Shown here piece after piece: positions 874-35,876 of a stretch of DNA of 39,537 nucleotides. How positions within the stretch are numbered: position 1 is the stretch's first letter; each line of letters begins with the position of its first letter. The stretch covers positions 1 to 39,537 of the forward strand of contig VFYV01000017.1 in NCBI GenBank assembly GCA_016871395.1. Reading direction: 5' to 3'. The notes beneath the pieces are model-generated. The model made no database searches, had not been told where the DNA came from, and saw only the letters and a list, made by a program, of their open reading frames with translations. The translations under genes were made by a program, and so were the position numbers. The stretch is from Actinomycetota bacterium. Its GTDB lineage: Bacteria; Actinomycetota; Acidimicrobiia; Acidimicrobiales; Ilumatobacteraceae.

Positions 874-1529
874 CGGTGGGTTCCCCACGAATCCCAGTGG
901 GTCATCTCGTTCGACGGCAAGCGATGTGCCGGCTTGAAGTCGTCGCCGGTGTAGTACGCCACCGGGAACAACACCGTCTGCGTCCAGTCTTCCGGAATAC
1001 CCAACATCGTCGACACCTCGGACTCGGAGAACAAGTGGATGGTGGTCCACGCCGTGCCGAGACCGCGGGCCCGCAACGCCAACATGAAACTCCATGCCGC
1101 GGGCAGGATGCTGCCGTAGGTGCTGGCTTGGGCGATGACCATTGGCACGTTTTCCACACGACCCTTCACGCAGGCGATGACGAACACCGGAACATGCTCC
1201 AGAATCGAACCGAGATACTCAGCCGACTCCATCACTTTGGGCATGACGTGCTCGCGCGGGTCACCCTCGGGCAACGGCGGCGGATACCCCGAACCGGCCA
1301 TCACCTCGCCTCCCTTGCGGTACACGTCGGCGATGGCCCTCCTCTTCTCCGGATCCGTCACCACCACGAAGGCCCAGTTCTGAGCGTTGGTACCGGTGGG
1401 GGCCTGCATGGCGATGTCGATGCACTCGGCGATCACCTCGGGCTCCACCGACCGGCTCAGATCGAGGCGCTTGCGCACCGACCGGGTGGTGGTGAGCAGT
1501 TTGTCGGTGGCGGCGCGGTCGATCGTCAT
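870..1529 (-). CDS. Nitroreductase family protein
   Basis: The 219-residue protein is an FMN-dependent NAD(P)H oxidoreductase of the nitroreductase fold. The R-S-V-R-K-R motif near the N-terminus and A-P-T-G-T-N-A-Q-N-W about 30 residues later are the usual FMN-contacting segments. The C-terminal P-V-A-Y-Y-T-G-D-D-F-K-P-A and H-W-D-S-W segments match actinobacterial members. Family members reduce nitro groups, quinones or unsaturated ketones; the substrate here is unknown. The frame is open upstream to 1595, but ATG 1529 is chosen because a TAGAGT -10-like element ends 7 bases before it and the extra upstream residues are low-complexity and basic. It is coupled by a TTGA overlap to the PPOX gene and is divergent from the peroxiredoxin gene, so a redox or detoxification setting is plausible. 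Confidence 0.9.
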   Translation of the reverse strand: MTIDRAATDKLLTTTRSVRKRLDLSRSVEPEVIAECIDIAMQAPTGTNAQNWAFVVVTDPEKRRAIADVYRKGGEVMAGSGYPPPLPEGDPREHVMPKVMESAEYLGSILEHVPVFVIACVKGRVENVPMVIAQASTYGSILPAAWSFMLALRARGLGTAWTTIHLFSESEVSTMLGIPEDWTQTVLFPVAYYTGDDFKPAHRLPSNEMTHWDSWGTHR

Positions 1530-1536
1530 GGGGAGG

Positions 1537-1542
1537 ACTCTA
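1537..1542 (-). promoter_or_regulatory. -10-like element, probable leaderless start of nitroreductase
   Basis: TAGAGT on the minus strand ends 7 bases before ATG 1529. No good -35 is seen 16-18 bases upstream. Confidence 0.5.
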
Positions 1543-1626
1543 GGTCGCCCGGGCCGAAGGATCTTCCACGACGAAGATCGCCGAGTTTTACCCACTGCTC
1601 ACCCGTAGCCTCAAGACACCGAATTC

Positions 1627-1634
1627 AGAAGGAG
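1627..1634 (+). promoter_or_regulatory. Strong Shine-Dalgarno of peroxiredoxin gene
   Basis: AGAAGGAG lies 7 bases before ATG 1642. It is one of few canonical ribosome binding sites in the window. A TAGCCT hexamer at 1606-1611 could be the -10 of a short-leader transcript. Confidence 0.75.
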
Positions 1635-1641
1635 CATCGAA

Positions 1642-2277
1642 ATGGCCATCCGTCTCGGCGACACCGCCCCCGACTTCACCGCCGACACCACCCAGGGCAC
1701 CATCTCGTTCCACGAGTGGCTCGGCGATTCTTGGGGGGTGCTGTTCAGCCACCCCAAGGACTTCACCCCGGTGTGCACCACCGAACTCGGTTATGTCGCG
1801 CGCATCAAGCCCGAGTTCGACAAGCGCAACGTGAAGGTCATCGGCTTGTCCGTCGACTCGGTCGAGAGCCACAACAAGTGGGAAGGCGACATCGGCGAGA
1901 CCCAGGGAACTCCGGTGAACTTCCCCATGATCGGCGATCCCGATCGCAAGGTGAGCGACCTGTACGACATGATCCACCCCAACGCCAACGACACCCTCAC
2001 GGTACGCAGCGTGTTCGTGATCGGTCCCGACAAGAAGGTGAAACTCACCATCACCTACCCGGCCTCCACCGGACGCAACTTCGACGAAATCCTGCGCGTC
2101 ATCGACTCGCTCCAGCTCACCGCGAAGTACAAGGTCGCCACCCCGGTCAACTGGACCGACGGTAACGACGTCATCATCGGTGCGGCGGTGTCCGACGAGG
2201 AGGCCAAGACCCTCTTCCCGAACGGATGGAAGACCGTCAAGCCCTACCTGCGCGTGTTGCCCCAGCCGGGCAAGTGA
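1642..2277 (+). CDS. Peroxiredoxin, 1-Cys Prx6-type
   Basis: This 211-residue thiol peroxidase reduces H2O2 and alkyl hydroperoxides in the cytoplasm. The peroxidatic Cys45 sits in P-V-C-T-T-E after S-H-P-K-D-F-T, the hallmark of the Prx6 subfamily. The AhpC/TSA thioredoxin-like domain covers about residues 5-140. The C-terminal 1-cysPrx domain (about 155-205) includes A-T-P-V-N-W and a late W-K-T-V-K-P-Y-L-R segment. Full length is typical for Prx6. I see no second Cys placed as a resolving residue, consistent with a 1-Cys mechanism. The start has a strong Shine-Dalgarno, suggesting high expression. The gene is monocistronic: it diverges from the nitroreductase and converges on the next gene with one base between stop codons. 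Confidence 0.95.
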   Translation: MAIRLGDTAPDFTADTTQGTISFHEWLGDSWGVLFSHPKDFTPVCTTELGYVARIKPEFDKRNVKVIGLSVDSVESHNKWEGDIGETQGTPVNFPMIGDPDRKVSDLYDMIHPNANDTLTVRSVFVIGPDKKVKLTITYPASTGRNFDEILRVIDSLQLTAKYKVATPVNWTDGNDVIIGAAVSDEEAKTLFPNGWKTVKPYLRVLPQPGK

Positions 2278-2761: not shown

Positions 2762-2767
2762 CGGCAC

Positions 2768-2796
2768 AGACTAGGACCAGCGTCACCGCGTGTTCA
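2768..2796 (-). promoter_or_regulatory. Promoter of adenylyltransferase-like gene, leaderless
   Basis: On the minus strand TGAACA (2791-2796) and TAGTCT (2768-2773) are 17 bases apart, and the -10 ends 6 bases before GTG 2761. This decides the start codon. Confidence 0.6.
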
Positions 2797-2831: not shown

Positions 2832-2837
2832 CAGAAT
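2832..2837 (+). promoter_or_regulatory. Possible -10 element of ABC transporter operon
   Basis: CAGAAT ends 6 bases before ATG 2844. It lacks the first T of the consensus, but the same hexamer at the same spacing precedes the acyl-CoA dehydrogenase at 18528. No clear -35. Confidence 0.35.
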
Positions 2838-2843
2838 GGCCGC

Positions 2844-6555: not shown

Positions 6556-7458
6556 TCAGCCGAAACGGGTGAGGTCGTCGTCGATTTTGAGGCGCTGTCG
6601 CGCGGCGCGGGCGTCGGCCATGTAGCGAATCTCGGCCGGATGTGTGGGCGTGTGATCGTTGGCCGCCAAGTGAGCGGGTATCAACCGACGATCCAACTTC
6701 TGCTGACATTCGGGGCACCAGTACAGGGCTCGCGAGCGCTCCTCACAGTGCCCATGGGCCACGGTGCCCCGACAACGCGGGCAACGCTGACCGTTGCACG
6801 AGTACACCGAATGCTCGTAACCACCATCCCCACGGGTTCGCGACTTCACGATTCGTGCGGCCGCCTCCACCAACACGGCACAGTCCTCGTACGACAACTC
6901 CATCACCGGCGCGAAAGGACTCAATCCCACCGCCCACAGAGTCTCGCTTCGATCGGCGTTTCCGAGCCCGGTGATGACGCTTTGATCAGCGAGCACGTCG
7001 CAAATGGATGTGTTGCCGGCCTTGTACGACAGGAGGCGACAAGTGACCTCGACCAGATCGGGTCGGCGCTGCGAGATGTCGGGGCCGACGCCTCCACTGT
7101 GCGGATGTCGAGCCCGATCGGGAATGCGGAACGTCTCCACGATCGGCGCGCTGAAGCACACCGCCACCCATCCATCGACCTCGATGATCGCCCGGGCCTC
7201 GTAGGTGTTGCGACGCCAGACCTCGTTCGGTCGGTACACGTGCCACTTGCCAGTGAAGCGCAGATCGGTGGACAACACGATGCCATCGTCCCATCGCACG
7301 TCGACGCGACGGCCGTTGCGTTCGATGGCTTCGATGATGCTTCCGGGGCGCGGGGCAGGACCGATGGACGACATCGCATCGAAGCGCGTAGTGATTCGAC
7401 CCACCAGTGCCGTGCGCATCGCCGACACGTTGTGACTGATTCCGCCTCTACCTGCCAC
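6556..7458 (-). CDS. Fpg/Nei-family DNA glycosylase-like protein lacking canonical catalytic residues
   Basis: The 300-residue protein has the full Fpg/Nei layout. There is an N-terminal beta-sandwich, a helix-two-turn-helix around Q-S-V-I-T-G-L-G-N, and a C-terminal zinc finger C-P-R-C-x18-C-P-E-C with an Arg placed before the last Cys pair. Known members excise oxidised bases using N-terminal Pro1, Glu2 and a beta-hairpin Lys. Here the first residues are M-A-G-R-G-G-I-S-H, with 17 residues before L-V-G-R as in Fpg and Mtb Nei2. By ungapped count Pro becomes Ala and Glu becomes Gly, and the usual G-K of the hairpin reads G-R. The H2TH Tyr position is Asp. GTG 7458 is supported by TACATT ending 6 bases upstream. 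DNA binding is plausible; normal glycosylase/lyase chemistry is doubtful. Confidence 0.8.
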   Translation of the reverse strand: MAGRGGISHNVSAMRTALVGRITTRFDAMSSIGPAPRPGSIIEAIERNGRRVDVRWDDGIVLSTDLRFTGKWHVYRPNEVWRRNTYEARAIIEVDGWVAVCFSAPIVETFRIPDRARHPHSGGVGPDISQRRPDLVEVTCRLLSYKAGNTSICDVLADQSVITGLGNADRSETLWAVGLSPFAPVMELSYEDCAVLVEAAARIVKSRTRGDGGYEHSVYSCNGQRCPRCRGTVAHGHCEERSRALYWCPECQQKLDRRLIPAHLAANDHTPTHPAEIRYMADARAARQRLKIDDDLTRFG

Positions 7459-7464: not shown

Positions 7465-7470
7465 AATGTA
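7465..7470 (-). promoter_or_regulatory. -10-like element of Fpg/Nei-like gene, leaderless
   Basis: TACATT on the minus strand ends 6 bases before GTG 7458, fixing the start used to judge the missing catalytic residues. No -35 match. Confidence 0.55.
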
Positions 7471-8445: not shown

Positions 8446-9042
8446 TCAGTCGATTCGGAAGCGTTTTCGGGCTTTTTCTGCTACTCCCCACACATGGCAG
8501 CCGTCATCGTGATCGTTCACGATTCCCACGGACTGCATGAGGGCGTACATCGTGGTCGGTCCGACGAAGGACCACCCCCGCTTCTTCAGGTCCTTGGCCA
8601 ACGCCACCGACTCCGCCGAGGTGACCAAGGTCGCCACCTCGGCTCGGGTTGGCGCCTCCCGTCGGCGCGGAGGTTCGAACGACCAGACGTGTGAGGCCAG
8701 CGACCCCTTCACCTCCACCAGTTCGAGACAACGACGGGCGTTGTTGATGGTGCTCTCGACCTTGCCCCGGTGTCGGATGATCGATGCATCTCCCAACAGG
8801 CGCTCGACGTCACGCTCGCACATCCGGGCCACTCTGTCGACATCGAACCCGTGGAACACCCGTCGGAGGTCGCCGCGCTTGTCGAGCACGGTCCTCCACG
8901 ACAGTCCACTCTGGAAACCCTCGAGGCTGATCTTCTCGAACAGAGCGACGTCGCCACCGACCGGGAATCCCCATTCCTGATCGTGGTAGCGGCGCATGGA
9001 CTCGGATCCGAGACTCCACCCACAACGGGGCTCATCCTTCAT
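8446..9042 (-). CDS. tag: DNA-3-methyladenine glycosylase I
   Basis: The 198-residue enzyme removes N3-methyladenine from alkylated DNA as the first step of base excision repair. Motifs match Tag: C-G-W at 7-9, Y-H-D-Q-E-W-G at 19-25, E41 and W49 of the base pocket (S-L-E-G-F-Q-S-G-L-S-W), and N-D-H-D-D-G-C-H-V-W near the end. The zinc ligands are inferred as C7, H20, H178 and C182. The late F-V-G-P-T-T-M-Y-A-L-M-Q is also typical. The start overlaps the stop of the upstream dioxygenase gene by ATGA, so the two are probably co-translated. Length is close to the usual 185-200 residues. Confidence 0.95.
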   Translation of the reverse strand: MKDEPRCGWSLGSESMRRYHDQEWGFPVGGDVALFEKISLEGFQSGLSWRTVLDKRGDLRRVFHGFDVDRVARMCERDVERLLGDASIIRHRGKVESTINNARRCLELVEVKGSLASHVWSFEPPRRREAPTRAEVATLVTSAESVALAKDLKKRGWSFVGPTTMYALMQSVGIVNDHDDGCHVWGVAEKARKRFRID

Positions 9043-9884
9043 CGGCTCGGTATGGATCCGCGGACCGTGGTGCGGTGCAATTCGCGTCGGAAACCGGCGT
9101 AGTCATTGATCGCGAAATGTTGGGTCGAGCGGTTGTCCCAGATCACGACGTCACCGTTTCGCCAACGGTGCCGGTACTGGAACCGCACATCGGTGGTGTG
9201 ATTGTGGAGAAAGTCGAGTAGCTCGGCCGTCTCCTCGACGCCGACGCCGACGAAATCGCGCACGTAGGCCCGATTGAAAAACAGCACCTCCTTGCCCGTC
9301 TCCGGATGCACGGTGACCAGGGGATGGACCCGCTCGTCGTTGGCCGAGTCGTCGCAGATGATGTTCATTCCGCGCATTCCCGAATGAAGTGGCTGCAGGC
9401 GTCGCGAGTACGCATCGCGGGCGGTGTGCACGGCCTCGAGAGACGTCAATCGCTCACGCATCTGTGGCCCGAGCGCCATCCAGGCCGCGGTCATCGACGC
9501 GAAGACGGTGTCTCCACCCCACTGCGGTACGTCCACCGCCGCCAACACGGTGAATGAGGGGGGCTCGACTTGGAACGAGAAATCAGAATGCCAGGCGCCA
9601 CCGAAGTTGAACGCGGCACCCTCGTCGGCCTCCTTCACCACCCGGATCACGTGCGGGAAGTCGATCATCGTCTCCACGAAGGGCACCTCGGCGCTCGGCC
9701 CGAGCCGATCGGAGAATTCCGACTGTGAGCGAGGGCTCAACGATTGATCTCGAAAGACCACCACCTCGCGTTCGCACAGCAGGCGGCGAACATCGACGAG
9801 AGCATGTCCGTCGAGAGCGCCGAGATCGGCCCCGACCACCTCGGCGCCCACTGCTCCGGTCAGCATGCGAACTTCGTACGGCAC
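9039..9884 (-). CDS. TauD/TfdA-family Fe(II)/2-oxoglutarate dioxygenase
   Basis: The 281-residue enzyme carries the facial triad H99-x-D101 (W-H-S-D-F) and H256 (S-T-Q-H-F), with arginines at 267-271 suited to 2-oxoglutarate binding. N-F-G-G-A-W-H-S-D-F and W-D-N-R-S-T-Q-H are close to TauD-type consensus. Relatives oxidise taurine, alkylsulfates, 2,4-D or small amines; the substrate here is unknown. GTG 9884 is preferred over ATG 9866 because TAGGGT ends 6 bases upstream and M-P-Y-E-V fits the family start. It is the first gene of a unit with tag, joined by a 4-base overlap. Confidence 0.9.
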   Translation of the reverse strand: MPYEVRMLTGAVGAEVVGADLGALDGHALVDVRRLLCEREVVVFRDQSLSPRSQSEFSDRLGPSAEVPFVETMIDFPHVIRVVKEADEGAAFNFGGAWHSDFSFQVEPPSFTVLAAVDVPQWGGDTVFASMTAAWMALGPQMRERLTSLEAVHTARDAYSRRLQPLHSGMRGMNIICDDSANDERVHPLVTVHPETGKEVLFFNRAYVRDFVGVGVEETAELLDFLHNHTTDVRFQYRHRWRNGDVVIWDNRSTQHFAINDYAGFRRELHRTTVRGSIPSR

Positions 9885-9890: not shown

Positions 9891-9896
9891 ACCCTA
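9891..9896 (-). promoter_or_regulatory. -10-like element of tauD-type/tag unit
   Basis: TAGGGT on the minus strand ends 6 bases before GTG 9884. No recognisable -35. Confidence 0.5.
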
Positions 9897-9963: not shown

Positions 9964-9969
9964 TAACCT
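9964..9969 (+). promoter_or_regulatory. -10-like element of small membrane protein pair
   Basis: TAACCT ends 6 bases before GTG 9976, predicting a leaderless transcript. The 92-base region between the divergent starts has nothing else I can support. Confidence 0.5.
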
Positions 9970-9975: not shown

Positions 9976-10167
9976 GTGAAATCGACGACAATCTTGAGGC
10001 TCACAACGCTGCTGGCCGCTGGTGTCAGTTTGGTGCTCAGCGTGTGGCTGTATTTCTCGGGCGATGCCGACGAGGACCGCCTGAACGGCATTTTCGTGGG
10101 TGTTTGGGTCCCGTCCATCCTCGCCCTCGGCAACTTCCTCATCTCATCGGAGTCGAGAAGGAACTAA
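9976..10167 (+). CDS. Small membrane protein, two predicted helices
   Basis: This 63-residue protein has a short basic N-terminus (M-K-S-T-T-I-L-R) and a hydrophobic helix over about 8-28 (L-A-A-G-V-S-L-V-L-S-V-W-L-Y-F). A polar acidic loop G-D-A-D-E-D-R follows, then a second helix over about 38-57 (I-F-V-G-V-W-V-P-S-I-L-A-L-G), and a charged tail. The loop probably faces the outside by the positive-inside rule. No family is recognised. GTG start with a leaderless-type promoter. Two bases separate it from the next tiny membrane gene, so the two are very likely co-expressed. Confidence 0.65.
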   Translation: MKSTTILRLTTLLAAGVSLVLSVWLYFSGDADEDRLNGIFVGVWVPSILALGNFLISSESRRN

Positions 10168-10345: not shown

Positions 10346-10351
10346 TAAAGT
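10346..10351 (+). promoter_or_regulatory. -10-like element, leaderless GTG
   Basis: TAAAGT ends 7 bases before GTG 10359. The surrounding DNA is otherwise GC-rich. Confidence 0.5.
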
Positions 10352-10358: not shown

Positions 10359-10841
10359 GTGACCTCGTTGTCCGTCCCCCGTTTCGGAGAACTCCTGGCC
10401 CCGTACATTTCCCGGGTACCCGACGGCTCTCGGCCCCGCTTCCTCGCCCTTCTCGAGCGCGGGGCCGCTGAGCGCTACCGAGGGTGGGCCGTCGAAGTTC
10501 CCGAGCACGCCGATGTGTTGCTGGAGTGCTCGCGGAGCGAGGACGAGATCGCCGATCGCATCGAGGAGGCTTTCGACCTGGACGCGTCGTTGCGTCACGA
10601 GTTGTACGCTCCGCTGCCCGAGGCCACCCGCACCTACCACGACGCCTTCGCCCCGCACCCTCTGTGGGATCAACTTCGCATCCAGGCCAACGCCGAGCGC
10701 CAAGGAGCGCATGCGTGGCGGAGCATCGCGGCCCAACATCACGACCCCGCGGTGGTCGGTGTGTTGCTCGGTTGCTCCGCCCTCGAGGAAGCCAGCGCCG
10801 ACCGACTCGATGCGCTGATCGCGGCTCACGCCCCGACCTGA
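10359..10841 (+). CDS. Hypothetical helical protein, possibly ferritin-like
   Basis: The 160-residue protein looks all-helical with no signal or membrane segment. Segments that could hold metal ligands are S-R-S-E-D-E-I-A-D-R-I-E-E, A-N-A-E-R-Q-G-A-H-A-W-R (an E-x3-H pair) and G-C-S-A-L-E-E-A-S-A. Their spacing recalls rubrerythrin or MiaE-like four-helix bundles, but the E-x-x-H di-iron signature is not exact. I treat ferritin-like fold as a possibility only. It is the first gene before an MFS transporter, with 22 bases between, suggesting one transcript. GTG start is supported by the -10 spacing. Confidence 0.6.
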   Translation: MTSLSVPRFGELLAPYISRVPDGSRPRFLALLERGAAERYRGWAVEVPEHADVLLECSRSEDEIADRIEEAFDLDASLRHELYAPLPEATRTYHDAFAPHPLWDQLRIQANAERQGAHAWRSIAAQHHDPAVVGVLLGCSALEEASADRLDALIAAHAPT

Positions 10842-12051: not shown

Positions 12052-12057
12052 TACTGT
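12052..12057 (+). promoter_or_regulatory. -10-like element of NUDIX gene
   Basis: TACTGT begins on the first base after the MFS stop codon and ends 6 bases before ATG 12064, so the promoter upstream half must lie inside the MFS coding end. Confidence 0.5.
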
Positions 12058-12063: not shown

Positions 12064-12540
12064 ATGGGCGTGCGTGACGGTGACGGCTGGGTGTTTTGCG
12101 CCTGCGGTAGTCGCCACTGGGGCGTTCACGGTGCGGCCGGCTTGTTGATGGTCCGCCTCGACCTCGGACCCGAGCCCCACGTTCTGTTGCAGTTGCGCGC
12201 GGCTTGGACCCACGGTGGAGGCACCTGGGCCATTCCCGGTGGAGCGCTCGACTCCCACGAGAGCTCGCAGGAGGCCGCCGTGCGCGAGGCCTTCGAGGAG
12301 GTCGGAATCGACGTGCGCTTCCTCGACGTCAAGGACCTGTACTCCGACGATCACGGCAACTGGCGTTACGACACGGTGATCGCCCACGTCACCGGCGACG
12401 TCGGTGCGTACGAGGCCAACTTCGAATCCGACGAGGTGCGCTGGGTAGCGTTGTCCGACATCGAGTCGTACGACCTGCATCCCGGTTTGCGCAACTCGTG
12501 GCCCCACGTGCTGCCCAAGCTGTCGGCGACGTTGCCCTAG
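12064..12540 (+). CDS. NUDIX hydrolase
   Basis: The 158-residue protein carries a complete NUDIX box at about 60-82: G-x5-E66-x7-R74-E75-A-F-E78-E79-V-G81-I. This binds Mg2+ and hydrolyses a nucleoside diphosphate linked to another moiety. The N-terminal F-C-A-C-G-S-R-H-W-G-V-H-G-A-A-G-L-L block is common in actinobacterial members that sanitise nucleotide pools. A precise substrate cannot be assigned. It probably has its own leaderless promoter right behind the MFS gene. Its stop overlaps by 4 bases with the end of the convergent monooxygenase remnant. Confidence 0.92.
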   Translation: MGVRDGDGWVFCACGSRHWGVHGAAGLLMVRLDLGPEPHVLLQLRAAWTHGGGTWAIPGGALDSHESSQEAAVREAFEEVGIDVRFLDVKDLYSDDHGNWRYDTVIAHVTGDVGAYEANFESDEVRWVALSDIESYDLHPGLRNSWPHVLPKLSATLP

Positions 12541-13068
12541 GCGATCGAGAAGCGTGGCGAGAAGTCGGCGAGCGCGGCGTTTCCCTCGACTCCCCAGCCG
12601 AACACGATGCGATCGGGTCGCACGATCACGACGTCGCTGCCACAACGGTCCAGCAGACGTCTCGTCGGACCGTCCTGCGTGTCTCGCACGACGATGGCAT
12701 CCAAACGACCCACCCGGTCCCCCGGCACGCCGACGGGGCAACAGCAGGGAAACCACGGTGAACGACCGCGCTCCGCAGCATCCCACCACCCATCGCGCGG
12801 ACACATCGTGCTCGACTCCGACGGCGCCGCTCCGACGACAGTCCCTCCCTCGTCAGGCGATGGTCCAGTCGGTGCTCGCGTGCCACACTCCAAGGTCACG
12901 GAACGTGCGATCCGTCTCGACGTCGAAATGCGCGGCGCTCGGCAACGCGTACACGTCGAGATCCCGCTCGAGCACGACCACGTCGAGCCCGCGTCGAGCG
13001 AGCAACGCGGCCAGCGTCGAGCCCACGGGACCCGCATCGATGACGGCCACGTCGTGGATATCGGTCAT
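12537..13068 (-). pseudogene. Remnant of FAD-dependent aromatic monooxygenase (MhpA/PheA/TfdB type), internally deleted and frameshifted
   Basis: ATG 13068 opens a 71-residue frame with a Rossmann FAD-binding start, V-A-V-I-D-A-G-P-V-G-S-T-L-A-A-L-L-A-R-R, then V-V-V-L-E-R-D and A-A-H-F-D-V-E-T, the order seen in class A flavin hydroxylases. Even the G-x-G-x-x-G is degraded to D-A-G-P-V-G. That frame stops at 12853. Another frame, ending at 12537, encodes P-G-D-R-V-G-R-L-D and D-V-V-I-V-R-P-D-R-I-V-F-G-W, matching the C-terminal end of the same family. The roughly 400 central residues expected for a 500-residue enzyme are absent. The remnant sits last in a coupled operon, overlapping the dioxygenase stop as TGATG, so it was once a pathway member. 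Confidence 0.72.
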
Positions 13069-13997
13069 CAGGTGTGAGAAGCCCAGCCCGCCTTGAGGAC
13101 GTCGATGTCCTTGGGCACGATGAACTCCATGGGCATGCTCGGTCCCCACGCCAGACCGACGTTCTCGAGAGCGACGGCGGTGCGACCGACGTTCTCCCAC
13201 TCGGCGTCGTTCTCGATGCGGTCCATGTCGCTGTAGAACTCCACGAACGAGCCCGATGGATCGCGTAGGTACCACATGAAGTTGGAACCGATGAAATGTC
13301 GGCCGAAACCCCACGTGTGCCGATCGGCGTCGGCGGCGAGCAACTTCGTGGCGAGGTGACCCACGTGATCCACATCGTCGCACTCCCACGAACAGTGCTG
13401 CAGGAAGGGCACCTCACCACCGACGAGGGCGATGTTGTGGTGATCAGTGCTGCAGCGCAGGAAGGTGATGAGGTCGGTGAACTCGTCACTCACCTTGAAT
13501 CCCAAGCCATCGAGAAGATACGCGCGCGTCTCGCGCCAGGACGGGGTGGCCACCACGATGTGACCCAATCGACGTGGTGACCGCGCGCCGGGGAACACCC
13601 CCGAACTGCGACGGTCGATTCGCGGCGACGATCCCGGGGCGTTGAGGGGCACGGCCGAGGTCGCAGTCTGGCGCAATCGTGGGAGGGGACGGACGCGGAA
13701 CTCGATCCGCGTGTGTGGCTCGACGCAGACGAGTTCTCCCGACGACTTCGTGTGCCGGGCCCCGAGAGCGGCCAGGCGACCGGCGATCTCGTCGAGATCC
13801 GACTCGGAGTCCACCCCGAGCTCGACGCTCAGCAAACGCCGGAACGGCGACTCGGACACGTGGATCTGCGTTCCACCGTCGGGGCTGTCGAACAGCGAGC
13901 CGTCCGAGGTGGTCAGTCCCATCTCGCCGTAGAAACCGGCTTGGGCGACGGGGTCCGTGACTCCGACACGGATGGCCTGCAGGCGATGGAGCGCCAT
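13068..13997 (-). CDS. VOC-family extradiol-type dioxygenase/glyoxalase
   Basis: The 309-residue protein has two vicinal-oxygen-chelate modules, about 1-110 and 145-285, as in type I extradiol dioxygenases such as 2,3-dihydroxybiphenyl dioxygenase. The C-terminal half has L-G-H-I-V-V-A (first metal His), D-H-H-N-I-A-L and C-S-W-E-C-D-D-V-D-H, W-G-F-G-R-H, and D-P-S-G-S-F-V-E-F-Y with the metal Glu. The likely job is ring cleavage of a catechol-like substrate, supported by the adjacent FAH-family hydrolase and flavin hydroxylase remnant. ATG 13997 is chosen because it overlaps the upstream stop as TGATG; an ATG five codons earlier is also in frame. Confidence 0.85.
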   Translation of the reverse strand: MALHRLQAIRVGVTDPVAQAGFYGEMGLTTSDGSLFDSPDGGTQIHVSESPFRRLLSVELGVDSESDLDEIAGRLAALGARHTKSSGELVCVEPHTRIEFRVRPLPRLRQTATSAVPLNAPGSSPRIDRRSSGVFPGARSPRRLGHIVVATPSWRETRAYLLDGLGFKVSDEFTDLITFLRCSTDHHNIALVGGEVPFLQHCSWECDDVDHVGHLATKLLAADADRHTWGFGRHFIGSNFMWYLRDPSGSFVEFYSDMDRIENDAEWENVGRTAVALENVGLAWGPSMPMEFIVPKDIDVLKAGWASHT

Positions 13998-22930: not shown

Positions 22931-22936
22931 TACAGT
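22931..22936 (+). promoter_or_regulatory. -10 element of capA-like gene
   Basis: TACAGT ends 6 bases before ATG 22943, the same hexamer as at the GntR/PhyH pair. Confidence 0.55.
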
Positions 22937-27937: not shown

Positions 27938-27977
27938 CACCCGCCACACTGCCCCCAGGATCGTGTACAACGGTGAG

Positions 27978-28376
27978 GTGGGGAACGCCCGTCTCGCCGT
28001 GGAACACCACACACGACATTGGAACGCCATGAATCGCGACGCCTGGGTGGCGTTGTTCTCCCCTGCCGTCACTTTCGAAGATCCCGTGGGGGCACCGACG
28101 AAACACGGAGTGGAAGCGGTGCACAACTCGTGGGACCGCTCCTTCCGCCCAGGTCGCCGCTGGTATCTGCACCCGCGACAGATCGTCGAGGCCGGATTCG
28201 AGGCCGCGGTGGTGATGCACAACGAGGGACATCTCGAAGATCGCGTGGTGGAGGTACGCGGCATCGAGATCTTCACGGTCGATGCCACCGGCCTGATCGT
28301 CTCGATCCGCTCCTTCTTCGATCAACCAACCGAGTTCGCACTCGACGACTACTTCACGCCCGACCGAGGAGATTGA
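27978..28376 (+). CDS. NTF2-fold/SnoaL-like protein
   Basis: The protein is about 132 residues if begun at GTG 27978. R-H-W-N-A-M-N-R-D-A-W-V-A-L-F-S-P and V-T-F-E-D-P-V-G are the typical SnoaL-like opening, followed by F-D-Q-P at the end of the last strand. The fold is a cone-shaped alpha+beta barrel used by small isomerases, dehydratases and unknown enzymes; no catalytic residue set is clear. The start is uncertain: TACAAC ends 6 bases before GTG 27978, but ATG 27918 and GTG 27930 are also in frame. It is followed 30 bases later by the alkylsulfatase gene, which has its own -10. Confidence 0.75.
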   Translation: MGNARLAVEHHTRHWNAMNRDAWVALFSPAVTFEDPVGAPTKHGVEAVHNSWDRSFRPGRRWYLHPRQIVEAGFEAAVVMHNEGHLEDRVVEVRGIEIFTVDATGLIVSIRSFFDQPTEFALDDYFTPDRGD

Positions 28377-28393: not shown

Positions 28394-28399
28394 TAGGGT
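28394..28399 (+). promoter_or_regulatory. -10 element of alkylsulfatase gene
   Basis: TAGGGT ends 7 bases before ATG 28407. A TTGACG at 28373-28378 lies 15 bases upstream, slightly close for a -35. Confidence 0.5.
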
Positions 28400-28406: not shown

Positions 28407-30335
28407 ATGACGAGCGAGCCCCGACCTCTGGTCGACGATCCCGCCCCCAAACCGGCGTCCGAACACACCCGAGCGCGTAACGCTCGCGCCGGCGTCGAAC
28501 TCGACTCGGCCGACTTCGATCGTGCTCGTCGCGGATTCATCGCCGCGCTGACCGACACGAACATCACTTCTCTCGAAGGCCGACGGGTGACCGACATCGG
28601 TCGCTACTCCTTCTTGGCCGACGACGCACCCGACACCGTGCATCCCAATTTGTGGCGCCACGCACAATTGAATGCCCACCACGGTTTGTTCGAGGTCACC
28701 GAGGGCGTGTGGCAGATACGTGGATACGACATCTCCAACATCACCTTCATCCGCGGTGACACCGGCTGGATCGTGGTGGATCCGCTCACGGTGGAAGCCA
28801 CGGCGCGCGCTGGATACGACCTGATCACCGAGCACCTCGGACATCGACCGATAGTGGCCGTGATATACACCCACTCACACGCCGATCACTTCGGTGGGGT
28901 TCTCGGCGTCACCACGCAGACCGACGTCGACGCGGGACGTTGTCAGGTGATCGCGCCGGTTGGCTTCCTCCACGAGGTGGTGGGCGAGAACATCATCGCC
29001 GGACCAGCGATGGGCCGCCGCGCGCTGTACCAATTCGGACCGTCGCTACCGCCCGGGCCCCGCGGTCACGTGGACTGCGGTCTGGGCAACGCCATTCCGT
29101 TCGGGCCGAACACTCTCATCGCCCCCACGCGCGACATCACGCGAACGGGCGAGGAGATGGTGGTCGATGGAGTGCGCATCATTTTCCAGTTGACGCCCGA
29201 AACCGAAGCGCCAGCCGAGATGAACTTCTTCTTCCCGGACCTCAAGGCGCTGTGCATGGCCGAGAACTGCTCGCACACCATGCACAATCTGATCCCCATT
29301 CGTGGGGCGTTGGTGCGCAACTCACTGCGGTGGTCGAAGTACATCAACGAGGCGCTCGAGTTGTTCGGTGCCGATACCGAGGTGTTGTTCACCTCCCACA
29401 ACTGGCCCCGCTGGGGATGCGACGACGCACGAGAGTTCCTGAAGTTGCAGCGGGATCTGTACAAATGGATGCACGACCAGACCATGCGCCTCGCCAACAA
29501 GGGGTACGTGGCCGCCGAAATCGCCGAGGAATTGCTTTTGCCCGACGATTTCCTCGCTCACGAGCACACGCACGGCTTCTACGGCGACCTCGTGCACAAC
29601 AGCAAGGCCGTGTACCAGCGCTACCTCAGTTGGTACGACGGCAACCCGGCGAACCTGAACAGACTGCCACCCACCGAGGTGGGTCGGCGCTACGTGTCGT
29701 TGGCCGGTGGACCTGACAAGGTGCTCGATGCGGGCCGCGCCGCGTTCGCCGCTGGGGACTACCGCTGGGGTGCCGAACTGGTGAACCATCTGGTCTTCGC
29801 CGACCCTTCCAACACCGAGGCCCGTGCACTGCAGGCCGACATTCTCGAGCAGTTGGGGTATCAGAGTGAATCCTCCACCTTCCGCAACGCCTATCTGGTG
29901 GGGGCGCAAGAGTTGCGTTACGGTCCACCCGAGTTCGGACCAGGTACCGCACGGGCCCGAGGGATCCTGGTGGCCATGACCGTCGAGCAAATCTTCGACA
30001 CCATCTCGTTGCGCCTGAAGAGCGAGGACGTGGGCGGGGTCGGTCTGCTCGTCAACTGGACCTTCCCCGACATGGCCGGCACGCCCGACGAGAGGTGGGT
30101 GCTGGGCCTGTCACATCGCACGCTGTTCTCGGTGCAGGGCCGACATGACGGGTCCGCAGTGGCCAGCATCACGATCACCAGATCTCTGCTGGTCGACATC
30201 CTCACCCAACAAACCACCTTCACGGACGAGATCGGGGTCGGCAACGTGGCCCTCGACGGCGATGTCGCCGCACTGTTACAGATTTTCGGCAACCTCGACA
30301 CCTTCACCCCCGGCTTCCCCATCGTCGAACCCTGA
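28407..30335 (+). CDS. Metallo-beta-lactamase-fold alkylsulfatase (SdsA1/BDS1 type)
   Basis: The 642-residue protein hydrolyses alkyl sulfates to alcohol and sulfate in known relatives. The MBL zinc motif T-H-S-H-A-D-H is at 155-161. M-A-E-N-C-S-H-T-M-H-N and F-T-S-H-N-W-P supply further metal and substrate residues. An alkylsulfatase dimerisation region follows at about 370-500 with Y-L-S-W-Y-D-G-N-P, and the last 120 residues look like an SCP2-type hydrophobic-binding domain. No signal peptide is visible (M-T-S-E-P-R-P-L), unlike the secreted Pseudomonas enzyme, so a cytoplasmic location is inferred. The next gene encodes an aldehyde dehydrogenase that could act on the oxidised alcohol. Confidence 0.93.
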   Translation: MTSEPRPLVDDPAPKPASEHTRARNARAGVELDSADFDRARRGFIAALTDTNITSLEGRRVTDIGRYSFLADDAPDTVHPNLWRHAQLNAHHGLFEVTEGVWQIRGYDISNITFIRGDTGWIVVDPLTVEATARAGYDLITEHLGHRPIVAVIYTHSHADHFGGVLGVTTQTDVDAGRCQVIAPVGFLHEVVGENIIAGPAMGRRALYQFGPSLPPGPRGHVDCGLGNAIPFGPNTLIAPTRDITRTGEEMVVDGVRIIFQLTPETEAPAEMNFFFPDLKALCMAENCSHTMHNLIPIRGALVRNSLRWSKYINEALELFGADTEVLFTSHNWPRWGCDDAREFLKLQRDLYKWMHDQTMRLANKGYVAAEIAEELLLPDDFLAHEHTHGFYGDLVHNSKAVYQRYLSWYDGNPANLNRLPPTEVGRRYVSLAGGPDKVLDAGRAAFAAGDYRWGAELVNHLVFADPSNTEARALQADILEQLGYQSESSTFRNAYLVGAQELRYGPPEFGPGTARARGILVAMTVEQIFDTISLRLKSEDVGGVGLLVNWTFPDMAGTPDERWVLGLSHRTLFSVQGRHDGSAVASITITRSLLVDILTQQTTFTDEIGVGNVALDGDVAALLQIFGNLDTFTPGFPIVEP

Positions 30336-30391: not shown

Positions 30392-30397
30392 TAGAAC
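30392..30397 (+). promoter_or_regulatory. Possible -10 element of aldehyde dehydrogenase gene
   Basis: TAGAAC ends 6 bases before ATG 30404. A weak inverted repeat, TCTCCGA to TCGGGAGA (30373-30391, one bulge), lies just upstream. Confidence 0.4.
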
Positions 30398-31766: not shown

Positions 31767-32681
31767 TCAGATCGCGGTGGCGACGCTCGCTTGTCGTTCG
31801 GCGAGACGCTCGGCCTGACGACGGGCCACCTTGGCCACGCGATCGATGTACTTGAACAGGCTGACCCGCGCCTCCTCGGCCGCGGCGCTGAGACCCTCCA
31901 CCTTGTCGATGGCCCACTGACGGAACACCAACGGAGTGATGATTCGGTCAAGGTGGATGGCGAAGTCGTAAATGCCCGCCCCGGCGATGGCTTTGGCGTG
32001 TTCGATGAAACCGGGAATTCCGGTTCCCGGCATGGCGAATCCGATCACCTGACGCTTCAACGCTTCGATCGCGGAGCTGGGATCCAGCTCGATGAATTTG
32101 GAGACCAGATCGCGGTAGAAGAGATGGTGGCGATTTTCGTCGGATGACAACTTCATCATGACGTTGTACCCGGCGGGATCGTTCAACTGGGTGCCCGTGT
32201 TGCGATGCGAGATACGGGTGGCCAATTCCTGGATGGCGACGTAACACATCCCGTCGGCGGCCGACAACGGCTCGGGAACGATGGCGCTGCTGACCTGAGC
32301 CATACGACCGTCCTCCAACACCTTGGGATCGACCAATCCGCTGACGGTGATGTAGTCACGCATCACGATGGCATGACGCCCCTCTTCGGCGGTCCAACGC
32401 TGTACCCATGCCCCCCACACCGAATCGCCACCGAACATGCGCGAGATGGTTCGCGTGTACCAAGGCAAGTTGTCCTCGGTGAGCAGGTTCACCAACAAGG
32501 CGGAGCGAACTCCCGGCGACAGTGGGGACACGCCGTGAGTGAAATCTCCGTCCTTCAACTGGGCGGCACGCTCCCACGGCACATGCTCGTGGGGATACCA
32601 CTCCTCGGCGGTCTCGAGGTGGCGACGGAGCAAACGCTCAGCCTCGGGCTCGAGTTCGCGAAGGAGGTCGACCTCGTCCAT
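31767..32681 (-). CDS. Acyl-ACP desaturase (ferritin-like di-iron)
   Basis: The 304-residue protein is of the soluble stearoyl-ACP desaturase class. Di-iron ligands are visible as E69 (L-L-T-E-D-N-L-P), E100-G-R-H103, E152 (Q-E-L-A), and E182-N-R-H185 in D-E-N-R-H-H. W-Y-P-H-E near residue 30 is also characteristic. Actinobacterial relatives (DesA1/DesA2) insert double bonds into ACP-bound chains, including mycolate precursors. No membrane segment. TAGTTT ends 6 bases before ATG. Its stop is one base from the stop of the convergent aldehyde dehydrogenase gene. Confidence 0.9.
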   Translation of the reverse strand: MDEVDLLRELEPEAERLLRRHLETAEEWYPHEHVPWERAAQLKDGDFTHGVSPLSPGVRSALLVNLLTEDNLPWYTRTISRMFGGDSVWGAWVQRWTAEEGRHAIVMRDYITVSGLVDPKVLEDGRMAQVSSAIVPEPLSAADGMCYVAIQELATRISHRNTGTQLNDPAGYNVMMKLSSDENRHHLFYRDLVSKFIELDPSSAIEALKRQVIGFAMPGTGIPGFIEHAKAIAGAGIYDFAIHLDRIITPLVFRQWAIDKVEGLSAAAEEARVSLFKYIDRVAKVARRQAERLAERQASVATAI

Positions 32682-32737: not shown

Positions 32738-32743
32738 TAACAT
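32738..32743 (+). promoter_or_regulatory. -10 element of DoxX-like gene
   Basis: TAACAT ends 6 bases before GTG 32750, followed by a run of T. It decides the GTG start. Confidence 0.55.
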
Positions 32744-32749: not shown

Positions 32750-33094
32750 GTGGACGTCACCAACGTCATCTTGTCGGTTCTGTTGGCTCTGGTCTGTGTG
32801 GGCTCGGCGGTGGCCGATTTCAAATTGATGCCACAAATCGTCGAGAGCATGCAGCGCCTGCGCATGCCCACCCGGGTGATTCCCGCTTTGGGCATCGCCA
32901 AGGTCGCCGGGGCCCTCGGCCTCGTCGTCGGGTTCTCGAACGGCGCCCTCGGCTCGTACGCGGCGTTGTGTCTGAGCCTCTACTTCTTCTTGGCCACCGC
33001 GCTCCACCTGCGCGCCCATGACACTCTGGCGAACACCGCGCCGGCCGCCGTGTTGCTGGTGGTGGCGGTGCTGACGTTCGTCACCAGCCTCTGA
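32750..33094 (+). CDS. DoxX-like membrane protein
   Basis: The 114-residue protein has four hydrophobic helices, about 5-24, 46-65, 70-90 and 95-113. The loop K-L-M-P-Q-I-V-E-S-M-Q-R-L-R-M-P and A-L-G-I-A-K-V-A-G-A-L-G match the small DoxX-like family of actinobacteria. Function is unknown; larger DoxX proteins are linked to quinone or thiosulfate redox systems. GTG start chosen by the -10 spacing. It converges on the NTF2-fold gene across a short hairpin. Confidence 0.85.
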   Translation: MDVTNVILSVLLALVCVGSAVADFKLMPQIVESMQRLRMPTRVIPALGIAKVAGALGLVVGFSNGALGSYAALCLSLYFFLATALHLRAHDTLANTAPAAVLLVVAVLTFVTSL

Positions 33095-33122: not shown

Positions 33123-33551
33123 TCACGGAATGGGGGTGGCGCCCCCGCTCATGATGTACTCGATCCACCACCGGGGCGCTTTGTCCAACAGATTGTTCAA
33201 ATGCGAGTAGTCGTGCCACTCGTGGATCAACCCGTCGCGAATGCGCATCACCGACGTGAACGGATGCGCGATCATCTCGCCGGTGTGGAAGTGCCATTCC
33301 TCGACGTGGATGGTGACCACGGTGTCGCCTTCGGCCAACACCCGGTCGGGCCGATGAACCATCTTGGCGGTGGGTCCGAGGCCCAGTCGCAGACGGTCGG
33401 CAATGTCACGCGGTCCGATGGCCGGTGGCACGGCACCCACGTCCATGTATTCGGCGTTGGGCGCGAACTGGGAAGCGACACCGTCCCAATCCTTGGCGTA
33501 CATCAACTGCCAATGACGATCGGCGATGGCGCGGTTCTCCTGGGTCCCCAT
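33123..33551 (-). CDS. NTF2-fold/SnoaL-like protein
   Basis: The 142-residue protein opens with N-R-A-I-A-D-R-H-W-Q-L-M-Y-A-K-D-W-D-G-V-A-S-Q-F, the helix pair of SnoaL-like folds. It continues with Y-M-D-V-G, V-V-T-I-H-V-E-E-W-H-F and R-I-R-D-G-L-I-H-E-W-H-D-Y. The His and Asp in the last segment line the pocket in related ketosteroid-isomerase-like proteins, but no reaction can be named. TAGGGT ends 7 bases before ATG 33551. Confidence 0.85.
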   Translation of the reverse strand: MGTQENRAIADRHWQLMYAKDWDGVASQFAPNAEYMDVGAVPPAIGPRDIADRLRLGLGPTAKMVHRPDRVLAEGDTVVTIHVEEWHFHTGEMIAHPFTSVMRIRDGLIHEWHDYSHLNNLLDKAPRWWIEYIMSGGATPIP

Positions 33552-33558: not shown

Positions 33559-33564
33559 ACCCTA
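33559..33564 (-). promoter_or_regulatory. -10 element of NTF2-fold gene
   Basis: TAGGGT on the minus strand ends 7 bases before ATG 33551. Confidence 0.5.
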
Positions 33565-33591: not shown

Positions 33592-34071
33592 TCAGTGCTC
33601 GAAGCGGGCCGTGGCGGCCGCGATCTCCTGCTCGGCCACCTCGCGACCCTGCCAACCCTTGACCGTGGTGTCCTTGCCGGGCTCGATCAATTTGTAGACC
33701 TCGAAGAAGTTGCCGACCTCGGCCAAAAGGTGCTCGGGGAGGTCGGCGATGTCGGCGTACGTGGCGAAACGTGGGTCGTGCGACGGCACGCACAGCACCT
33801 TGGCGTCGCCACCGGCTTCGTCCTCCATCCAGAACACCGCCACCGGACGCACCCACACGTGACAGCCGGGAAACGTGGGTTGGCTCAACCACACGAGTGC
33901 ATCCAACGGGTCGCCGTCATCGCCCAACGTGTGCGGAAAGAATCCGTAATCCAACGGATACTGCGTCGCGGTGAACAGCGTGCGGTCCAACCAGATGACC
34001 CCGGTCTCGTGGTCCATCTCGTATTTGTTGCGCGATCCTTGGGGGATCTCCACGATCATCTCGACGTCCAT
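33592..34071 (-). CDS. ppa: Inorganic pyrophosphatase, family I
   Basis: This 159-residue cytoplasmic enzyme hydrolyses PPi, pulling biosynthetic reactions forward. V-E-I-P-Q-G-S-R-N-K-Y-E at 7-18 carries substrate-binding residues. Y-P-x-D-Y-G-F-F-P is at 38-46, and the metal site D-D-G-D-P-L-D spans 51-57. Length is typical of bacterial family I. It is probably essential housekeeping. TAGCCT ends 7 bases before ATG 34071. Its start is 18 bases past the stop of the SRPBCC gene on the same strand, so partial read-through is possible. Confidence 0.97.
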   Translation of the reverse strand: MDVEMIVEIPQGSRNKYEMDHETGVIWLDRTLFTATQYPLDYGFFPHTLGDDGDPLDALVWLSQPTFPGCHVWVRPVAVFWMEDEAGGDAKVLCVPSHDPRFATYADIADLPEHLLAEVGNFFEVYKLIEPGKDTTVKGWQGREVAEQEIAAATARFEH

Positions 34072-34078
34072 GTCGCCG

Positions 34079-34084
34079 AGGCTA
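34079..34084 (-). promoter_or_regulatory. -10 element of pyrophosphatase gene
   Basis: TAGCCT on the minus strand ends 7 bases before ATG 34071. Confidence 0.5.
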
Positions 34085-34089
34085 CGTGT

Positions 34090-34545
34090 TCAGCCGAGGG
34101 ACTTCACGAGAGCGTCGAGTGTCGCCTCCATGTTGCGGCGGTTGTGAGCGGCGCGATCTTTCACGCCACTCACCAGGTTGCCCAGCCAGACCGCCACCTT
34201 GCCACGGTGGTCGATCCACTCGTGACGCACCTCGGTACCGCCCTCGACGGGACGGACCTCCCACACCCAGTCACACCAGTTTTTCGGTCCCACCATGAGA
34301 CCGAATGAGATGCGTCGGCCGGGCTCGAAAGCGTTCACTTCCACCACGGTGCGCCACGACCGCTTACCGTTCGAGTTACGTCCCCTGAACCGCGCCCCAA
34401 CGGTTGGTCCGGAGGCACCATTCGCCCATTCACCACCCTGGTTCTCGGGCGACCACTCGCCCATGCGCGCCAGGTCACTCACCATCGAGAACACCCGCGA
34501 TGGCTCCGCCGACACCGTGCGGGTCACCACCACAACTGCGCTCAT
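34090..34545 (-). CDS. SRPBCC (START/Bet v1-like) family protein
   Basis: The 151-residue protein has the pattern of polyketide-cyclase/dehydrase SRPBCC proteins: V-V-V-V-T-R-T-V-S-A-E-P at the N-terminus, V-F-S-M-V-S-D-L-A-R-M-G-E-W-S-P-E-N near 20-35, W-x-x-x-V-E-V-N-A-F-E-P-G-R-R-I-S-F in the middle, and a long C-terminal helix from about 125. The fold binds a hydrophobic ligand; cyclase, hydrolase or carrier roles occur. The start ATG 34545 overlaps the acyl-CoA dehydrogenase stop as TGATG, so the two are translationally coupled and may share a lipid substrate. Confidence 0.85.
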   Translation of the reverse strand: MSAVVVVTRTVSAEPSRVFSMVSDLARMGEWSPENQGGEWANGASGPTVGARFRGRNSNGKRSWRTVVEVNAFEPGRRISFGLMVGPKNWCDWVWEVRPVEGGTEVRHEWIDHRGKVAVWLGNLVSGVKDRAAHNRRNMEATLDALVKSLG

Positions 34546-35864
34546 CAAGATGGCCCAGTAAAAGCACCCTCGCGGGGGCGACCCGAAAGCGTGTACGGCT
34601 CTCCCTCGTGGCGGGCGATTTCGAAACGCCCCACCACTCCCCAGTGCACCTCGTCGGGACCGTCGGCCAGTCGAAGGGTGCGCTGCGACGCGTACATCGC
34701 CGACAACGGTGTCCACTGAGACACGCCCGTGGCCCCGTGCATCTGAATGGCCTCGTCGATGATGCCGCACACGATCTTGGGTACTGTCGCCTTCACCGCG
34801 CTCACCCACACCCGTGCCTCGGCGTTGCCCATCGTGTCCATGGCCTTGGCCGCGCGCAACACGAGCAGACGGCACATCTCGATATCGATACGGGCCTGGG
34901 CGATCACCTCGGGGTTTTTCCCCAAACGGGCGAGTGGCTTGCCGAACGCCTCGCGACTGAGTCCGCGCTTGACCATCATCTCGAGGGCCCGCTCGGCCGC
35001 ACCGATCGAACGCATGCAGTGATGGATGCGTCCGGGTCCGAGACGCATCTGGGAGATTTCGAATCCACGCCCCTCGCCGAGCAACATGTTCTCTTTCGGT
35101 ACCCGCACGTTCTCGAAGCGCAGATGCATGTGTCCGTGCGGCGCGTCATCGTTTCCGAACACGTGCATACCCTCCATGATCCGCACCCCGGGCGTGTCGG
35201 CCGGCACGAGAATCTGCGAGTGTCGGCGGTGCGGTGGCCCGTCGGGGCTGGTGAGCAGCATGCAGATGTAGATTTTGCAACGCGGATCGCCCGCTCCGGA
35301 GATGTAGTACTTGTCGCCGTTTATCAGCCACTCGTCACCGTCCAGTTCGGCACGGCACTCGAGATTTTTCGCATCACTCGACGCCACGTCGGGCTCGGTC
35401 ATCACGTAAGCCGAGCGAATCTCGCCGTTCAGTAGCGGCCTCAACCACCTGGCCTTCTGCTCGGGGGTTCCGACGCGCTCGAGCACTTCCATGTTGCCGG
35501 TGTCGGGGGCGCTGCAGTTCATCGATTCGCTGGCAAGAGGGCTTTTGCCGAGTTCGGCCGCGATGTAGGCGTAGTCGAGGTTCGACAGGCCCTCACCGGT
35601 GTGTGCGTCAGGCAGGAAGAAATTCCACAGTCCCCGCTCCTTGGCCTTGGCTTTCAGACCTTCCAGGATCTCCAATTGACCCTCGCCGTATCCCCAATGG
35701 TCGGCTCGGCCGATACCGCGTTGGTGGTACTCGGGAGTCACCGGGTCGACTTCTTCGGTGATGAACCTCACCACGGACTCGTACAGTGGCTTCACCTTGT
35801 CGGACATCGCCAAATTCAGCCCGTCGTCGGTGGAGATTCCTGAGTGCATTCCGGGTTTCGACAT
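34545..35864 (-). CDS. Acyl-CoA dehydrogenase (ACAD10/11-like)
   Basis: The 439-residue flavoenzyme has a long N-terminal helical domain (Y-E-S-V-V-R-F-I-T-E-E-V-D-P), V-M-T-E-P-D-V-A-S-S-D-A-K-N near 155-168, and W-L-I-N-G-D-K-Y-Y-I-S-G-A. The C-terminal domain carries F-G-K-P-L-A-R-L-G, Q-M-H-G-A-T-G-V-S and R-L-A-D-G-P-D-E-V-H. The T-E-P-D-V-A-S-S-D form resembles ACAD10/ACAD11 enzymes acting on long or branched acyl-CoA. It is divergent from the D-aminoacylase-like gene and coupled to the SRPBCC gene. TACGCT ends 6 bases before ATG. Confidence 0.95.
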   Translation of the reverse strand: MSKPGMHSGISTDDGLNLAMSDKVKPLYESVVRFITEEVDPVTPEYHQRGIGRADHWGYGEGQLEILEGLKAKAKERGLWNFFLPDAHTGEGLSNLDYAYIAAELGKSPLASESMNCSAPDTGNMEVLERVGTPEQKARWLRPLLNGEIRSAYVMTEPDVASSDAKNLECRAELDGDEWLINGDKYYISGAGDPRCKIYICMLLTSPDGPPHRRHSQILVPADTPGVRIMEGMHVFGNDDAPHGHMHLRFENVRVPKENMLLGEGRGFEISQMRLGPGRIHHCMRSIGAAERALEMMVKRGLSREAFGKPLARLGKNPEVIAQARIDIEMCRLLVLRAAKAMDTMGNAEARVWVSAVKATVPKIVCGIIDEAIQMHGATGVSQWTPLSAMYASQRTLRLADGPDEVHWGVVGRFEIARHEGEPYTLSGRPREGAFTGPS

Positions 35865-35870
35865 GCCTCG

Positions 35871-35876
35871 AGCGTA
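35871..35876 (-). promoter_or_regulatory. -10 element of acyl-CoA dehydrogenase-SRPBCC unit
   Basis: TACGCT on the minus strand ends 6 bases before ATG 35864. Confidence 0.45.

Follow-up and report, generated by a model that had tools for sequence, protein, structure and literature searches.

A TANNNT hexamer directly before start codons points to frequent leaderless transcription in an Ilumatobacteraceae genome

The window analyzed here is a stretch of 39,537 nucleotides from an uncultured aquatic actinobacterium of the family Ilumatobacteraceae (assembly GCA_016871395.1), and it corresponds to one of the 43 contigs (C17, VFYV01000017.1) of a source genome that totals 1.95 Mb and is 87% complete. 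The window genes belong to ordinary-looking metabolism, including a nitroreductase, TauD and PhyH dioxygenases, an acyl-CoA dehydrogenase, a cytochrome P450, an aldehyde dehydrogenase, a desaturase and others, as assigned in a Pfam scan that covered 20 of the 43 called window genes. An Rfam scan of the window gave no match. The element in question is the hexamer TANNNT, which a preliminary description, made from the sequence alone, had placed 6 or 7 bases before the ATG or GTG of 17 genes. All 17 sites were real, with the hexamer ending 6 bases before the start codon at 12 sites and 7 bases before it at 5 sites; nine of them lie on the minus strand and eight on the plus strand.

Genes were called with starts set by codon usage and start-codon type only, which made the caller blind to any upstream signal. 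Ortholog starts were taken from the syntenic stretches of twelve same-genus genomes, located using two window proteins. The best match was required to have at least 55% identity and an alignment starting no more than 12 residues in, the start position was extrapolated from it, and only homologous positions with ATG, GTG or TTG were counted. The candidate −10 elements are listed below, with the fraction of ortholog starts that carried the motif.

1537–1542, minus strand: TAGAGT, 7 bases before ATG 1529; nitroreductase, 870–1529 (Pfam); 2/2
2768–2773, minus strand: TAGTCT, 6 before GTG 2761; cytidylyltransferase-like, 2279–2761 (Pfam); 4/4
7465–7470, minus strand: TACATT, 6 before GTG 7458; H2TH DNA glycosylase-like, 6556–7458 (Pfam); 3/3
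9891–9896, minus strand: TAGGGT, 6 before GTG 9884; TauD-family dioxygenase, 9039–9884 (Pfam); 5/5
9964–9969, plus strand: TAACCT, 6 before GTG 9976; 63-residue protein, 9976–10167; no ortholog start found
10346–10351, plus strand: TAAAGT, 7 before GTG 10359; gene 10359–10841; 5/5
12052–12057, plus strand: TACTGT, 6 before ATG 12064; NUDIX, 12064–12540 (Pfam); 2/6
15526–15531, minus strand: TACAGT, 6 before GTG 15519; TTGACA 17 bases further upstream at 15549–15554; 2/2
15588–15593, plus strand: TACAGT, 6 before ATG 15600; PhyH, 15600–16454 (Pfam); 7/7
18576–18581, plus strand: TACGTT, 6 before ATG 18588; cupin, 18588–19019 (Pfam); 6/6
22931–22936, plus strand: TACAGT, 6 before ATG 22943; PGA_cap, 22943–24139 (Pfam); 1/1
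28394–28399, plus strand: TAGGGT, 7 before ATG 28407; alkyl sulfatase, 28407–30335 (Pfam); homologous place in orthologs without a start codon
32688–32693, minus strand: TAGTTT, 6 before ATG 32681; fatty acid desaturase, 31767–32681 (Pfam); 3/3
32738–32743, plus strand: TAACAT, 6 before GTG 32750; DoxX-like, 32750–33094 (Pfam); 5/5
33559–33564, minus strand: TAGGGT, 7 before ATG 33551; SnoaL-like, 33123–33551 (Pfam); 2/4
34079–34084, minus strand: TAGCCT, 7 before ATG 34071; inorganic pyrophosphatase (ppa), 33592–34071; 0/4 in the same genus
35871–35876, minus strand: TACGCT, 6 before ATG 35864; gene 34545–35864; 4/4

Five weaker variants had also been proposed, each ending 6 bases before its start codon. 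The fractions give the orthologs with a homologous start codon in which the variant was retained.

18535–18540, minus strand: variant −10 CAGAAT before ATG 18528; acyl-CoA dehydrogenase; CAGAAT or CACAAT at 6 in 8/8
2832–2837, plus strand: variant −10 CAGAAT before ATG 2844; the same at 6 in 2/2
20210–20215, minus strand: weak variant TAGAAC before ATG 20203; cytochrome P450; 2/3 (G329, G335)
30392–30397, plus strand: weak variant TAGAAC before ATG 30404; aldehyde dehydrogenase; 1/5 (G331)
27966–27971, plus strand: variant TACAAC of doubtful role before GTG 27978; gene 27978–28376

Among these variants, the two CAGAAT sites were borne out by the orthologs, the two TAGAAC sites were weak, and the site at 27978 stayed doubtful, the G329 ortholog of that gene having TACAAA at spacing 6 plus GGAGG immediately before the start. 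The retention of CAGAAT or CACAAT before 18528 in all eight orthologs implied that a strict TANNNT count misses real sites; strict TANNNT was found at 0 of 18 ortholog starts of the four weak-variant genes. The small gene at 27978–28376 (plus strand), SnoaL-like by eye and 82% identical to its G329 ortholog from residue 1, was overlooked by the motif-blind caller. The acyl-CoA dehydrogenase used as a query had 23 matches in its own 1.95 Mb genome, itself included, which is a large paralog family for the genome size. Three divergent back-to-back pairs of candidate leaderless genes (9884/9976, 15519/15600 and 32681/32750) would hold two promoters in gaps of 68–91 bases.

The position of the hexamer was sharply defined. 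Motif-blind calling of the window and 400 kb of its own genome (440 kb) gave 429 genes, among which the distance from the end of TANNNT to the start codon was 6 bases in 57 cases, 7 in 22 and 8 in 11, while each of the other distances from 0 to 45 had 0–5 matches. The hexamer at 6–7 bases was found at 79 of 417 called ATG or GTG starts (19%), compared with 15 of 8070 in-frame ATG or GTG codons that lie over 90 bases into a gene (0.2%). The chance rate of about 1% per gene assumed in the preliminary description was thus conservative, and its conclusion that coincidence does not account for the sites stood. In the whole source genome TANNNT-N6-ATG occurred 194 times and TANNNT-N12-ATG 25 times, the N12 spacing having been chosen as background because it retains the dinucleotides of the motif. 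TANNNT therefore lies at a fixed distance of about 6–7 bases before start codons, well above chance.

Four of the 17 listed starts (2761, 7458, 15519 and 35864) differed from those of the caller (2767, 7419, 15543 and 35849), and the motif itself had been proposed for start correction, so the pattern could be taken for an artefact of picking start codons to fit the motif. The peak was nevertheless present with motif-blind starts, and the motif was present at 51 of 61 ortholog starts, the four disputed genes included, which refutes this account in general and leaves it next to no probability. At the four disputed genes the homologous codon was a start with the motif in 4/4, 3/3, 2/2 and 4/4 orthologs, respectively, with the start projected over up to 11 residues in late-starting alignments. 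With this support the motif-adjacent starts look better than those of the caller, and the use of the motif for start correction held up.

Conservation in the same genus left a footprint of the same shape. For the 17 listed genes, the 51 ortholog starts with TANNNT at 6–8 bases comprised 42 at 6 and 9 at 7, whereas 17 other window genes, 14 of which had a usable ortholog start, carried the motif at 5 of 44. In 46 ortholog pairs in which the window gene had spacing 6, identity at positions −12, −11 and −7 was 0.76, 0.87 and 0.96, respectively, whereas the remaining positions as far as −30 ranged from 0.26 to 0.63; in 13 of the 46 pairs one gene started with ATG and the other with GTG. Since −12, −11 and −7 were the most conserved, the sequence of the gap appeared largely free while T, A, T and the spacing were kept. 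Reciprocal best matches of the sampled genes to the initial 400 kb of G251 gave 33 pairs, of which 1 was start-aligned; this uninformative set was replaced by the syntenic same-genus stretches. Outside the listed genes, the MFS gene at 10864 (plus strand) had no motif in its own copy and TANNNT at 7–8 bases in 4 of 6 same-genus orthologs, which suggests that a leaderless promoter may have been gained or lost inside the genus. Likewise, the gene at 26268 had no motif and its single ortholog had one.

The hexamer was concentrated at genes that begin transcription units. In the window, 42 of the 43 called genes were classed, with the four disputed starts substituted and three doubtful, very short calls (294–482, 12537–12713 and 12880–13077) retained. 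Of 22 genes with an opposite-strand neighbour upstream, 13 had TANNNT, 2 a weak variant and 7 neither; the corresponding numbers were 2, 1 and 1 for the 4 genes with a same-strand gap of at least 40 bases and 2, 2 and 12 for the 16 genes with a smaller one. Some of the 17 listed genes do not clearly lead a transcription unit. These are 12064 and 34071, with a same-strand neighbour less than 40 bases away, and 10359 and 33551, with one at 75 and 40 bases; 28407 follows the conserved small gene 27978–28376, and counting that gene would shift it into the small-gap class.

For the genome sample, a unit head was defined as a gene whose upstream neighbour lies on the opposite strand at a distance of 20 bases or more, or that follows any gap of at least 60 bases, which gave 192 heads, 69 genes with middling gaps and 163 with small gaps (same-strand gap of at most 20 bases), 424 in total. 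The source genome, G251 and a set of named relatives were compared by gene class. The strict motif was found in 59/192 heads, 20/69 middling-gap genes and 11/163 small-gap genes of the source genome and in 32/137, 10/58 and 14/165 of those of G251.

A hexamer that adjoins the start codon occupies the place where ribosome sites sit, and it could be a translation signal, namely an AT-rich or S1-type ribosome site, other than Shine-Dalgarno (SD), on leadered mRNAs. In line with this, the portions of PMC5397173 drawn on here describe a U-rich bias near −10 in Actinobacteria, perhaps from S1 sites, with Actinobacteria lacking its AT-rich leaderless pattern, and the motif was not rare among the small-gap genes of the named relatives (26/101). 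Against this rival, the operon-internal genes of the source genome seldom had it, as the counts above show. Its spacing was moreover fixed within 1–2 bases, with T, A and T as the conserved positions. The hexamer was also displaced where an SD site was present. Distal TANNNT, with its end 15 to 60 bases upstream, was found in 16 of 29 heads with a five-base SD core and in 3 of 59 motif-adjacent heads of the source genome, in 7/14 and 2/32 of those of G251, and in 20/27 and 15/71 of those of the named relatives. Because SD-led heads have the same hexamer further upstream, it behaves as a −10 box and not as a ribosome signal. In the source genome the five-base SD core itself was present in 29 of 133 other heads but in just 1 of 59 motif-adjacent ones. 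G251 and the named relatives, with 0/32 and 3/71 motif-adjacent heads, respectively, showed a difference of the same direction.

The start codons and the base before them also spoke against a ribosome site. TTG starts were found at 0 of 283 strict sites and 21 of 887 other starts (Fisher p 0.004). At position −1, genes with spacing 6 had C at 0.68 and G at 0.05 in the source genome, compared with 0.50 and 0.32 in the remaining genes, and C at 0.87 and G at 0.07 in G251, compared with 0.49 and 0.29. Taken together, these results make a translation signal on leadered mRNAs very improbable.

We consider it very probable that the TANNNT hexamers act as −10 elements and set the transcript start at the start codon, so that many mRNAs at unit heads would be leaderless. 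This reading follows from the positional peak, the ortholog footprint, the enrichment at unit heads, the near-exclusion with SD sites, the lack of TTG at strict sites and the C at −1 in the own genus. The hexamers would be the −10 elements of housekeeping-type (SigA/sigma-70-like) promoters, and the RNA polymerase would begin with the A or G that opens the start codon. The resulting mRNA would have neither a leader nor an SD site, and ribosomes would bind its 5′-terminal AUG or GUG directly, as in the leaderless mRNAs that have been studied. Such direct recognition would proceed through a complex of 30S, IF2 and initiator tRNA or through the 70S ribosome. Downstream operon genes and a minority of unit heads would use leaders with SD sites. 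The anti-SD of the 16S rRNA (contig C8) was intact, with CCUCC present and a 3′ end that holds GGATCACCTCCTTTCT, which ruled out a loss of SD-based initiation of the kind seen in lineages without CCUCC in 16S.

Several observations weigh against this interpretation. The named relatives showed a weaker contrast among the classes (heads 71/198, middling gaps 40/87, small gaps 26/101), and their C at −1 was hardly raised (0.41 compared with 0.37, with G at 0.08 compared with 0.23). The contrast with SD sites shrank when four-base matches were counted, which were found in 13 of 88 heads with a weight-matrix match and 39 of 109 without one, and TTG was no different for loose matrix matches (4/149 compared with 8/280 without a match). 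A search for a −35 element gave no clear peak, even though 15519 has TTGACA 17 bases before its TACAGT. The pattern read backward gave 126 matches compared with 194 forward, far above the N12 control; it was set aside as a measure of background, since it appears to be built from different dinucleotides. A leader of 1–3 bases may also be present, most so at spacings 7–8. Finally, the motif of ppa at 34071 was not conserved within the genus (0/4). TANNNT was nevertheless present at 6–8 bases in 36 of 51 ppa rows (L029–L080 with L076 left out; our count), and in the more distant rows L081–L108 it was present in 2 of 28, where GGAG-like sites were common and 7 mapped positions were not start codons. 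Among these rows, metagenome-assembled records titled Bifidobacterium breve (L034, L037, L057, L058, L061, L072, L080), Acidobacteria bacterium (L065, L079) or Acidimicrobium ferrooxidans DSM 10331 (L046) have pyrophosphatases 74–86% identical to that of the window; the names look wrong and the sequences look Ilumatobacteraceae-like. The three best pyrophosphatase records, titled Ilumatobacteraceae, acIV and Actinomycetota, share 89–90% identity with that of the window.

A −10 element next to the start codon could also serve a minor transcript, with a second, leadered promoter giving most of the mRNA at many units. Both options are present in 47 genes of M. tuberculosis according to the part of Cortes et al. 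2013 considered here (PMC3898074), and a further upstream TANNNT was seen in 15 of the 71 motif-adjacent heads of the named relatives. In the source genome, by contrast, an additional TANNNT up to 60 bases away was seen in just 3 of the 59 motif-adjacent heads, and of the 11 divergent gaps in the window, 9 span only 35–112 bases. This alternative is accordingly rated as very improbable.

The share of leaderless genes is an estimate under the reading of TANNNT as a start-adjacent −10 element. Of 197 heads, the strict motif covered 59, and 77 when an alternative start within 60 bases was allowed; a larger share rests on a weight-matrix correction. In this correction, the background was taken 9–18 bases further upstream, the sensitivity of the matrix was corrected for, and thresholds of 2–5 bits gave leaderless shares of 0.50, 0.55, 0.66 and 0.70 for unit heads; the rise with the threshold makes the figure model-dependent. 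Middling-gap genes had shares of 0.39–0.58 and small-gap genes of 0.16–0.19. A mixture fit on the heads gave 0.57, but fitting the operon-internal genes or the full gene set led to diffuse spacings (0.755 and 0.791, respectively); these two fits were discarded, which also counts against a firm figure. The estimates put about 50–70% of unit-heading genes and, weighted over the 424 genes, about 36–47% of all genes as probably leaderless. SD matches of at least 4 bases were found in 50 of 192 heads, compared with 28 at a shifted position, and in 62 of 163 small-gap genes, compared with 28. From the class-wise shares and these counts, the leaderless mode would lead at unit heads while SD sites are used more within operons. 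The proposal that leaderless starts are dominant is thus borne out by estimate for unit heads and not for all genes.

Gene-caller fractions outside the source genome were unreliable, as in the GC-rich G213, where the caller gave 2 of 61 heads despite a whole-genome excess, which also weighs against the leaderless reading. The same caution on start calls applies to two GC-rich genomes from outside the class, sampled over 100 kb, and to 15 named Actinomycetes loci (5/161 heads). Genomes were compared by an excess index, TANNNT-N6-ATG minus TANNNT-N12-ATG per Mb, which considers ATG only, depends on gene and unit density and is not a fraction. Among 296 sampled genomes of the phylum (136 in a first set and 160 in a second), the source genome had an index of 86.8 per Mb (s.e. 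7.6) and ranked third. Above it were G254 (92.6, s.e. 6.0) and G198, an AT-rich genome with a noisy value (106.7, s.e. 30.3); G165, G209, G068 and G122 (81–84) lay within its error. The median index was 61 in the family (8 genomes), 53 in the order (12), 63 in the class (5), and 32 (109) and 15 (160, a second sample) in other members of the phylum.

Leaderless mRNAs were already known in Actinobacteria, as had been pointed out and as the portions of Zheng et al. 2011 (PMC3160421) and Cortes et al. 2013 consulted for this comparison confirm. Zheng et al. described TA-led (TANNNT) leaderless genes in Actinobacteria and Deinococcus-Thermus, found in 86 of 89 actinobacterial genomes and in about 20% of genes, interpreted the same hexamer, some 12 bases before the start, as a −10 box, and termed such genes widespread without being dominant. 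Our estimate exceeds theirs, although the methods differ and the percentages are not strictly comparable. The word "acidimicrobium" is absent from the text of that paper as available to us. In M. tuberculosis, leaderless genes made up 26% of those that have a primary start site according to the portion of Cortes et al. cited, and mapped sites had C at −1, purine starts and no consensus −35. The TANNNT −10, the lack of a conserved −35, the preference for a purine start and the C at −1 are shared with the genome studied here, whereas start sites were mapped there and are predicted here, where the predicted share is higher. As excerpted from PMC12340547, a −10 motif adjoining open reading frames (ORFs) in Deinococcus radiodurans was shown experimentally to be a −10 region with spacing requirements, and about 30% of ORFs on average were concerned in that phylum; TANNNT directly before ORFs is common to both, but the proof was experimental in that other phylum and the case here is drawn from sequence alone. 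In the open-licence literature, a scope outside which most subscription papers fall, nothing was found that links leaderless genes with Ilumatobacter, and Acidimicrobiia met the term only through a class entry in a table of anti-SD types; among the 10 of 174 papers listed by a broader search, no title concerned the subject.

The leaderless mode itself is thus already known in related bacteria, and the present genome is a strong example of it in a little-studied group, where the mode looks unusually common. What is new is that an Ilumatobacteraceae-like genome ranks third of 296 in its phylum by the excess index, within error of several relatives. We put forward only tentatively, and with some doubt, that Ilumatobacteraceae and their closest relatives belong to the bacteria that depend most on leaderless mRNAs, with a majority of units, above the 26% of M. 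tuberculosis and the approximately 30% of Deinococcus-Thermus, starting in this way and SD sites used mainly inside operons. In practice, the motif provides a start-codon correction rule for a large uncultured group, in which 4 of 17 starts were missed by a motif-blind caller and orthologs side with the motif-adjacent codon. Should the majority share prove right, these bacteria would be natural material for studying how most unit-heading genes can be run without leaders in a cell whose anti-SD is intact.

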